In this document: piece by piece, positions 30,961 to 36,464 of the stretch
Numbering within the stretch: position 1 is the first letter of the stretch
Layout of the letters: each line of letters opens with the position of its first letter
NCBI RefSeq assembly: GCF_025639805.1
Contig: NZ_CP106735.1
Coordinates: 682,001 to 746,000, forward strand
Source: Reichenbachiella carrageenanivorans
GTDB taxonomy: Bacteria > Bacteroidota > Bacteroidia > Cytophagales > Cyclobacteriaceae
Direction of reading: 5' to 3'
Length of the DNA: 64,000 bases
Program-made: the position numbers and the translations under genes
The notes under the pieces: model-generated
What the model was told of the DNA's origin: nothing
Database searches by the model: none
Seen by the model: the letters and a program-made list of their open reading frames with translations, nothing else

Positions 30961-31425
30961 TTATCCCAGCTGAATAGGACGACTCATACTTTCATCTAGT
31001 GAAATAAAGGTTTCCGTTCTATCAATACCGTCTACTTTCTGGATTTTATCATGCAAAACTTCACGAAGGTGATTAGTGTCTCTGCAATGTATTTTAATAA
31101 ATATATTATAGTTACCTGTGGTGTAGTGAATCTTGACTACCTCAGGAATATCACGAAGCTTGTCTACTACTACATCATATAGGGAACTCTTTTGAAGATA
31201 TATTCCTAAAAAACAGGTCACATCAAATCCCAATTTAGAATAGTCCAATTGTAACGTAGTACCTTTTACTACCCCCAATTCTTCCATTTTTTTCATTCGT
31301 ACGTGTACCGTACCTCCAGACACGTAAACCTTTTTGGCTATTTCAGTATAAGGTGTCTTTGCATCCTGCATTAGATGTGAAAGGATCTTCAAATCCACAT
31401 CATCAATTTCATAATTTTTCGGCAT
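30961..31425 (-). CDS. Lrp/AsnC family transcriptional regulator
   Basis: A 154-residue regulator. The N-terminal winged helix-turn-helix (about 8-55) reads VDLKILSHLMQDAKTPYTEIA and VSGGTVHVRMKKMEELGVVKG. The C-terminal RAM domain that binds amino acids runs from about 68 to 150. It is 62 nt upstream of the biotin carrier gene on the same strand. Closest in type to the LrpA/AsnC regulators common in Bacteroidota; its ligand cannot be read from sequence. Confidence 0.92.
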   Translation of the reverse strand: MPKNYEIDDVDLKILSHLMQDAKTPYTEIAKKVYVSGGTVHVRMKKMEELGVVKGTTLQLDYSKLGFDVTCFLGIYLQKSSLYDVVVDKLRDIPEVVKIHYTTGNYNIFIKIHCRDTNHLREVLHDKIQKVDGIDRTETFISLDESMSRPIQLG

Positions 31426-31542: not shown

Positions 31543-31584
31543 CATCATCAAAACAAACGAAAAGACGTTCTTTTGTTTAATACT

Positions 31585-31696
31585 GTAGGGTGATGAAACA
31601 GGCAGCCATGCCCTCCTATCTCGGGGGTGGAGATTTTGGATAAATCGCTCCTTGCGACTAACTACTCCGTGGAGGTTCGAATCCTTCTCCTACAGC
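31585..31696 (+). tRNA. class II tRNA-like RNA, copy 1 (anticodon loop with AUC)
   Basis: A full cloverleaf can be drawn. The acceptor stem is TGTAGGG/TCCTACA (31585-31591 with 31689-31695), extended by an outer C-G pair, with U8 following. A leucine-type D arm has the 11-nt loop carrying G18-G19. The anticodon stem is CCCTC/GGGGG with loop CTATCTC, and the T arm is canonical with loop TTCGAAT. Between the anticodon and T arms lies an unusually long variable domain with its own hairpin (TCGC 31646-31649, GCGA 31655-31658). Anticodon AUC with U at position 37 is odd for a decoding tRNA, and CCA is not encoded. It may be a non-decoding tRNA-like RNA. It is not tmRNA, which has a different 5' end and an mRNA-like part. 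Confidence 0.55.
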
Positions 31697-31723
31697 TATC
31701 ATTTTTGGGTTAATGTTGTTTAA

Positions 31724-31756
31724 TGAAAGAGTCTGGTTTACCAGACTCTTTTCATT
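31724..31756 (+). terminator. terminator of tRNA-like gene 1
   Basis: ATGAAAGAGTCTGG pairs with CCAGACTCTTTTCAT (one extra T) around TTTA; the descending arm contains the T run. The same hairpin follows copy 2. Confidence 0.7.
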
Positions 31757-31944
31757 TATACCCCTCAGAGCCCTCAAACAGCCTTTTACAAGCATCACAG
31801 CACACATCAATACATATTTCGCAATATAAACGCTCAATTTAAAGCTTGTTTTGCGAATTCATCAATATTTTTTATCAATTAGTAAAAACAATGTATTTAT
31901 TGATCTGTTTTAGTGTAAAATTTTCAACATTCAGATGGTTTTAC

Positions 31945-31952
31945 TACCTTTG
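31945..31952 (+). promoter_or_regulatory. -7 promoter element of tRNA-like gene 2
   Basis: TACCTTTG is a perfect TAnnTTTG match, 4 nt before the block shared with copy 1, so transcription should begin close to 31958. Confidence 0.65.
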
Positions 31953-31956
31953 AATT

Positions 31957-32168
31957 ATCAAAACAAACGAAAAGACGTTCTTTTGTTTAATACTGTAGGG
32001 TGATGAAACAGGCAGCCATGCCCTCCTCTCTCGGGGGTGGGGAACTGGGACAAATTCCAATTAATATTGGAGCTAACTACTCCGTGAAGGTTCGAATCCT
32101 TCTCCTACAGCTATCATTTTTGGGTTAATGTTGTTTAATGAAAGAGTCTGGTTTACCAGACTTTTTTC
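31957..32168 (+). repeat. second unit of a tandem duplication (first unit 31547-31757)
   Basis: Two units of about 211 nt lie 410 nt apart. Leader (with an imperfect hairpin from AAAC to GTTT), tRNA-like body and trailer with terminator are nearly identical. The difference is concentrated in the variable domain. Confidence 0.85.
31994..32110 (+). tRNA. class II tRNA-like RNA, copy 2 (anticodon loop with CUC)
   Basis: Same architecture as copy 1 and identical in the acceptor, D and anticodon stems. The anticodon loop is CTCTCTC, giving CUC, which would read the Glu codon GAG although glutamate tRNAs are not class II. The T stem is GAAGG/CCTTC. The variable domain differs in sequence but keeps the same plan: an outer GGGG/CTCC stem and an inner hairpin TCCAAT/ATTGGA (32056-32061 with 32066-32071), then the shared block CTAACTACTCCGTG. 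The change of the inner hairpin with pairing retained suggests selection on structure. Leader and trailer sequences are also conserved with copy 1. Confidence 0.55.
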
Positions 32169-36005: not shown

Positions 36006-36464
36006 ATGATTAGTCAATTTGACCCTATCGATAAAAAAATCCTTCGCCGTCTCAGCGAAAATGCTCGCGTACCATACTCGACACTAGCCAAAGAGCTAAA
36101 TATATCCAACACGATGGTACACCAGCGAGTAAACAAACTTCGACAATCAGGAGTGATCAAAAATGCCACTTTTGTATTTGATCCTAAGGTGCTGGGCTAC
36201 ACCACCGAAGCCATGACAAGGATAGAAGTGACCAATGCTAAGTATGTGAACAGCCTCATTGCAGCACTCAAGGAAATCCCTGAGATCGTAGAGTGCTCCA
36301 ATATTACTGGCAAGTATGCGCTCATTATCAAGATATTTGCCAAGGACAACAGCCACCTTCGAGATGTATTATATGGTCGTATTCACCCACTAGCGGGAGT
36401 AGAAGGCACAGACACTACCATTTCTTTTGAAACGGCTTTTCAAAAAAATATCGCTATTGATTGA
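36006..36464 (+). CDS. Lrp/AsnC family transcriptional regulator
   Basis: A 152-residue regulator. The winged helix-turn-helix is at about 8-58 (DPIDKKILRRLSENARVPYS, ISNTMVHQRVNKLRQSGVIK), and the RAM ligand-binding domain follows (about 70-148). It is divergent from the 2-oxoadipate dioxygenase-like gene and shares an AT-rich control region with it, so control of lysine or another amino-acid catabolism is a reasonable guess. It ends 3 nt before the convergent DUF5686 gene. Confidence 0.92.
   Translation: MISQFDPIDKKILRRLSENARVPYSTLAKELNISNTMVHQRVNKLRQSGVIKNATFVFDPKVLGYTTEAMTRIEVTNAKYVNSLIAALKEIPEIVECSNITGKYALIIKIFAKDNSHLRDVLYGRIHPLAGVEGTDTTISFETAFQKNIAID

Follow-up and report, generated by a model that had tools for sequence, protein, structure and literature searches.

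The analysed stretch of the Reichenbachiella carrageenanivorans genome (hereafter the window; 64,000 nucleotides) carries two tandem copies of a tRNA-like RNA that we propose to be a dedicated, non-decoding carrier of aspartate: AspRS would charge the RNA, GatCAB would amidate the bound aspartate to asparagine, and the asparagine would then be released. We put the probability of this reading at roughly 55%. A preliminary description of this DNA had reported two tandem class II tRNA-like RNAs; both are present on the + strand, and their structure is backed by the covariation of relatives. The RNA genes and the elements around them lie as follows.

30961..31425, − strand: AsnC-like regulator of the Lrp/AsnC family, divergent from the RNA genes (NCBIfam AsnC, NF008384)
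31551..31578, + strand: leader hairpin before copy 1, inverted repeat AAACAAA..TTTGTTT (by eye)
31583..31696, + strand: tRNA-like RNA copy 1 (from the sequence; 126.3 bits in the covariance model search of the genome itself), with position −1 at 31583, U1 at 31584, G73 at 31695 and C74 at 31696
31616..31622, + strand: anticodon-like loop of copy 1, CTATCTC (A34 U35 C36 U37 C38; from the sequence)
31725..31753, + strand: terminator-like palindrome after copy 1 (by eye)
31961..31988, + strand: leader hairpin before copy 2, its letters identical to those of the copy 1 leader (by eye)
31993..32111, + strand: tRNA-like RNA copy 2 (from the sequence; 125.9 bits in the covariance model), with U1 at 31994, G73 at 32110 and C74 at 32111
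32026..32032, + strand: anticodon-like loop of copy 2, CTCTCTC (C34, U37; from the sequence)
32140..32167, + strand: terminator-like palindrome after copy 2, with Ts following it on the + strand (by eye)

The leader hairpin and terminator-like palindrome described earlier for each copy are seen in the sequence as repeated letters; the hairpin before copy 1 could alternatively be a regulator site. The + strand palindromes after both copies were absent from the output of a terminator scan, which listed the copy 2 stem for the − strand only. A separate promoter for each copy is plausible as a prediction; a sigma-70 promoter scan, the model of which does not cover Bacteroidota promoters, found 4 against 3.4 expected. 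Just 3′ of the RNA, the tail ATTTTTGGG occurs at 31700-31709 and 32117-32125 of the window and also at many relatives' loci.

Single-sequence folding of the two copies was no better than that of shuffles (z = −0.76 and +0.11), so that a single sequence alone would not prove the structure, whereas the comparison of relatives does. We wrote a cloverleaf by hand from 38 aligned relatives and then tested it for covariation: 97.1% of the cells paired, as compared to 53-58% in slid controls, and changes on both sides occurred in 14 of the 28 pairs, with 0 of 500 shuffles reaching the observed values. The general features of a tRNA are all there (7-bp acceptor, D, anticodon and T arms, U8, GG in the D loop, canonical T loop), and members combine a 5-bp anticodon stem, a Leu-like D arm and a 7/5 acceptor-T branch with a long variable arm, in which the internal loop (GNAYAAA/CUAAC) is conserved and the distal hairpin changes fast. 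In the window copies, the 11-nt Leu-like D loop with GG and the canonical T loop could both be read as the preliminary description had them, as could the change of the variable-arm hairpin from TCGC/GCGA to TCCAAT/ATTGGA. Its acceptor of 7 to 8 bp stood only for the 7 bp: the eighth pair, C-1:G73, was dropped because position −1 is unconserved (C 110, T 75, A 44 among 229 members), which makes G73 the discriminator. The same variation ruled out an 8-bp acceptor of the tRNA-Sec type. Within the distal variable arm, GAGCUC recurs in several genera, and the sequence GGGUUGACCAC is common to some bacterial and phage copies, which hints at exchange or loop contacts.

ARAGORN called 0 tRNAs in the window, and Rfam gave 0 matches at gathering thresholds over its length. 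A permissive Rfam search of 1.7 kb returned a single sub-threshold match, RF04351, at 22.2 bits against a gathering threshold of 68, and membership of a known Rfam family was rejected on these grounds. A misannotated tRNA-Leu or tRNA-Ser was rejected as well: when the covariance model ranked the genome's own sequences, the two copies came first at 126 bits, followed by ordinary tRNA-Leu, -Tyr and -Ser genes at ≤55.5 bits. The tRNA genes of this genome encode C74 in 30/30 cases and CCA in 5/30; since they likewise end in a genomic C74, the RNA would appear fit for ordinary 3′ processing and for completion of its CCA end. It resembles tRNA-Sec and the allo-tRNAs (8/4 and 9/3 forms) in being of class II, with a long variable arm and odd anticodons, and in having come from genome mining (excerpts of PMC7609411), but its 7-bp acceptor, 5-bp T stem and unconserved −1:73 differ from their 8/5, 8/4 or 9/3 branch.

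Identity elements were counted in 81 members that had been gathered by similarity or by model, with no anticodon-loop pattern; U35, C36, Y37 and C38 were part of the patterns used in some scans, and members from those scans were therefore excluded. Distinct sequences of at least 90 bases numbered 248, with 2 dropped at parsing. U1:A72, G2:C71, U3:A70, G73, C74, U35, C36 and C38 were fixed in 81/81 members, and position 37 was a pyrimidine in every one of them (U 74, C 7; purine 0/81), while position 34 was G in 72, C in 6, A in 2 and U in 1. The window copies are thus A34 and C34 variants without G34: their loops CTATCTC and CTCTCTC with U37, and the anticodons AUC and CUC, had been read correctly, but for the family these are a local variant, 72/81 relatives having G34 (GUC). 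A copy with U34 and the loop CTTTCTC (G088/L088) was found in genome G375, which has no AsnA or AsnB-like match over the cut-off. U33 occurred in only 63/81 members. A decoding tRNA would normally not have a pyrimidine at position 37, nor vary freely at position 33, and the conservation pattern argues that the RNA is probably a specialised, non-decoding class II tRNA. Ordinary genes for tRNA-Asp(GTC) and tRNA-Glu(TTC) are present in the same genome.

Aspartate identity has been assigned to G73, G34, U35, C36 and C38, with G2-C71 as a minor element, and amidation of Asp to Asn was reported to need U1-A72 and to be blocked by G1-C72 and U20a, as in tRNA-Asp (both from the consulted part of PMC9976931). 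Among the features of an AspRS substrate, G73, U35, C36, C38 and G2:C71 were found in 81/81 members, while the G1:C72 of bacterial tRNA-Asp was absent, all 81 having U1:A72. That same pair, together with the lack of U20a in 246/247 members, would make the RNA a GatCAB substrate; here, the four bases after G18G19 contained no U, and their assignment to 20/20a is our own. Compared with the genes of its own genome, the RNA is like bacterial tRNA-Asp in U35, C36, C38, G73 and G2:C71 and like tRNA-Asn in U1:A72 and G73, and it is unlike both in its Leu-like D arm, long variable arm, internal loop, pyrimidine 37 and lack of G1:C72. Read at the level of sequence, it has the loop of a tRNA-Asp and an acceptor end like that of tRNA-Asn, a hybrid that would join Asp identity to the GatCAB determinant. 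The A34 and C34 of the window copies are a real difficulty, G34 being a published major determinant of Asp identity.

The preliminary description had made its claim depend on whether a covariance search would find relatives, and such relatives exist in Bacteroidota. With copy 2 as query, blastn gave matches in 46/59 close genomes and in 31/296 genomes of the phylum. Among the matches listed (sorted) from a covariance model search of 395 phylum genomes, 39 genomes had a member at ≥95 bits, and these were set apart by a score gap from ordinary tRNAs at ≤63 bits. Two further members at ~70 bits were accepted on reading: that of G148 has a long insert within the variable arm, and that of G048 (L334:1138-1215, − strand), a genome where GlnRS is absent and AsnA present, has a short, class I-like variable loop and keeps CTATCTC, U1:A72 and G73. 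The family thus occurs in at least 41/395 sampled genomes of the phylum; named carriers among the matches listed from a separate genome scan by pattern include Algoriphagus, Cyclobacterium, Echinicola, Hymenobacter, Pontibacter, Chitinophaga, Lewinella and Marinoscillum. Out of 196 arrays, in which loci fetched twice for one genomic place were left unmerged, 135 had a single copy, 49 two, 11 three and 1 five. One stretch of Marinoscillum furvescens (L064; G014:C13:38486-44200) may be a field of broken copies: blastn gave 18 matches in the genome, mostly to the T arm and downstream tail, and the model found three full RNAs in the stretch.

The RNA was also found, by pattern, in 22 viral contigs, each with a member at 84-110 bits, and once in an uncultured 636-kb phage. 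Eight viral contigs carried a short form of 95-96 nt that ARAGORN called tRNA-Asp(GTC), and in eight the member lay near six or more tRNA genes; all 18 distinct viral sequences (18/18) had U33 and G34. Blastn gave no match for the short viral form against annotated phages, nor for copy 2 against plasmids. These occurrences suggest that phages may bring the RNA along like other translation supplies. Beside the members, viral contigs also contained other tRNA-like sequences of class II whose anticodon loops are odd (for example L245:4587-4707, L256:5064-5186 and L255:2999-3089), and ARAGORN gave no name to several of them.

Within the class, the occurrence of the RNA closely followed that of gatA, which here stands alone for GatCAB and was scored as present from E-values of 1e-152 or better. 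Strong gatA matches were found in 38/38 RNA-bearing genomes versus 1/60 RNA-lacking ones in the class part of the sample (98 genomes; Fisher 1.8e-26, without phylogenetic correction), and two of the RNA-lacking genomes (G210 and G257) had weaker gatA-like matches at ~1e-130. We searched for GlnRS in 76 genomes, namely the 38 with the RNA, 36 of the 60 without it, and G017 and G021, whose RNA-lacking status comes from blastn; 71/76 had the enzyme. The sole RNA-lacking genome with a strong gatA match, G099, has no GlnRS and thus depends on GatCAB for Gln. The genome analysed here has AsnRS, GlnRS, AspRS and GatA, and with GlnRS present in 71 of the 76 genomes, this leaves GatCAB without an obvious other job. 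Within three RNA-bearing families, seven RNA-lacking genomes from six genera (G017 and G021; G060, G414 and G179; G075 and G172) all lacked a full gatA match. Five close relatives (G037, G038, G042, G047 and G052) had gatA and no match to the RNA by blastn alone. Outside the class, three RNA-bearing genomes also had gatA matches, and most genomes had gatA without the RNA; the GlnRS search covered the 76 genomes only.

Genomes with and without the RNA also differed in their asparagine synthetases. E. coli-type AsnB, recognised by a split match to TIGR01536 (about 1-385, then 437-517), was present in 29/38 RNA-lacking versus 0/38 RNA-bearing genomes, and AsnA in 9/38 versus 4/38, so that one or the other occurred in 32/38 versus 4/38 (6.7e-11, uncorrected for phylogeny). 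A check of the AsnB assignment with NF006949 gave 919-960 bits for four full proteins and 485 bits over 355 aa for a partial one, with ten other AsnB-like proteins at 229-329 bits. Neither enzyme was found in 6/38 RNA-lacking genomes, G210 and G257 among them; 5/7 RNA-lacking genomes in RNA-bearing families had one of the two. A prediction set beforehand, that AsnA would be present in G017, G075, G253 and G285 and absent from RNA-bearing genomes, came out right in 3/4 and 34/38 cases, respectively; three of the four RNA-bearing genomes with AsnA lacked GlnRS. Five RNA-bearing genomes (G375, G206, G324, G304 and G046) lacked AsnA as well as AsnB-like matches above the cut-off. The genome analysed here has no AsnA and two AsnB-like proteins, which scored 499.6 and 412.9 bits, above the general TIGR01536 cut-off, and 328.5 and 276.8 bits against the AsnB equivalog cut-off of 499; one of the genes lies near a polysaccharide sugar transferase. 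Many other RNA-bearing genomes likewise have longer AsnB-like proteins, and these could make Asn, which leaves other routes to asparagine possible.

The gene neighbourhood also points to asparagine. The divergent regulator in the window matched AsnC (NF008384) best, at 178.2 bits (cut-off 227), with Lrp at 54.4. Across the family, an AsnC-like gene was divergent from the RNA in 103 of the 181 arrays that had an ORF upstream, with a median distance of 155 bases, while 78/181 arrays did not adjoin one; the arrangement extended to the distant family f65, and 30/30 of the divergent regulators scanned matched the AsnC model. This was the only frequent neighbour: a search for another one shared across families found none, and genes resembling pseudouridine synthases, AsmA and permeases (names that we assigned from sequence) were clade-specific. 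No AsnC-like gene was found beside the synthetase genes in 14 asnA and 11 E. coli-type asnB regions. A second Lrp/AsnC-family gene lies ~4 kb downstream in the window (36006-36464, + strand; 112.3 bits in the AsnC model). In E. coli, AsnC activates the divergent asnA gene and asparagine relieves this activation (excerpts of PMC8707732 and PMC4482635). Our arrangement is likewise an AsnC-type regulator divergent from what would be an Asn-providing gene, and it is unlike that of E. coli in that the divergent gene is an RNA and the regulator scores below the AsnC equivalog cut-off.

In the mechanism that we propose, AspRS would place aspartate on the RNA by way of the tRNA-Asp-like anticodon loop and G73, and GatCAB would accept the charged RNA on account of U1:A72, the first pair also of tRNA-Asn, and convert Asp to Asn. 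The asparagine would be freed from the RNA and become available to AsnRS and metabolism, pyrimidine 37 and the variable position 33 would keep the RNA from decoding Asp codons with Asn, and the AsnC-like regulator may make RNA expression respond to asparagine, much as asnA is governed by AsnC in E. coli. The preliminary description had suggested a non-decoding tRNA mimic or specialised tRNA for aminoacyl-lipid or peptide synthesis or for regulation; its first part agrees with our data, while for the use of the RNA, both the co-occurrence and the identity elements speak for a tRNA-dependent formation of asparagine instead.

The main rival explanation, which we consider unlikely, is that a non-discriminating AspRS makes ordinary Asp-tRNA-Asn and GatCAB amidates it, the RNA then being no carrier but regulating or scaffolding the pathway, for example by binding AspRS or GatCAB. 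Such pathways are known from Bdellovibrio, Deinococcus and Thermus, where AsnRS and GlnRS are likewise present and the RNA on which Asp is charged and then amidated has U1:A72 and G73; Bdellovibrio AspRS was reported to charge tRNA-Asn, and Bacteroidetes were listed among the 18/547 genera that have AsnRS, GlnRS and GatCAB without AsnA or AsnB (all from the consulted part of PMC4206432). In the Bdellovibrio-type system, the carrier is the decoding tRNA-Asn and the AspRS is non-discriminating, whereas here it would be an additional RNA that does not decode and has an Asp-type loop. The tRNA-Asn of the genome analysed here indeed has U1:A72, and amidation on it would explain the co-occurrence with gatA equally. 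It would leave unexplained why the RNA has a complete acceptor end, G73-C74 and an Asp-type loop, and it does not predict the hybrid identity. The AspRS of this genome has K where the Asp/Asn enzyme of P. aeruginosa has H31, a residue that we take to be a mark of the non-discriminating enzymes; this difference is suggestive at most.

It is improbable that the RNA, charged with Asp or Asn and taking no part in decoding, passes this amino acid on to a peptide, a lipid, a cell-wall precursor or a secondary product. The identity and non-decoding features fit such a donor just as well, and multiple copies and phage copies would suit a high demand, but no transferase is consistently adjacent, and the anticorrelation with AsnA and AsnB would go unexplained. 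Decidedly improbable is a genuine but unusual decoding tRNA-Asp for special conditions or for phages. The viral members speak for it, with ARAGORN naming the eight short forms tRNA-Asp(GTC), the clusters of tRNA genes around eight members, and U33 and G34 throughout, whereas across the 81 members the invariant pyrimidine 37, the incomplete conservation of U33, and a C, A or U at position 34 in 9/81 speak against it; a form with C34 or U34 would recognise codons for Glu, the genome has an ordinary tRNA-Asp gene, and the gatA co-occurrence would find no explanation. A decoy or antitoxin-like RNA against tRNA-cleaving nucleases, which tandem copies, the very variable distal hairpin and the presence in phage tRNA arrays might suggest, is highly improbable given the vertical-looking distribution, the AsnC linkage and the gatA co-occurrence, none of which it would lead one to expect.

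As far as we could find, the RNA family is apparently undescribed, and a dedicated non-decoding carrier for tRNA-dependent asparagine synthesis is apparently new; the consulted parts of openly licensed papers contained no description of this RNA. The wider picture, to which we give slightly less than even odds, is that of an RNA cofactor of primary metabolism that makes the cell's asparagine, is controlled by AsnC, can be replaced by AsnA or AsnB and is carried by phages. If true, the carrier reading would mean that an amino acid of proteins is made on a non-decoding RNA, a living case of RNA-bound biosynthesis uncoupled from translation, and it would bring to light an RNA gene overlooked by tRNA finders and by Rfam. 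For the Bacteroidota, it would explain why many of them retain GatCAB despite having GlnRS, and where asparagine comes from in genomes that have no AsnA and no clear AsnB.
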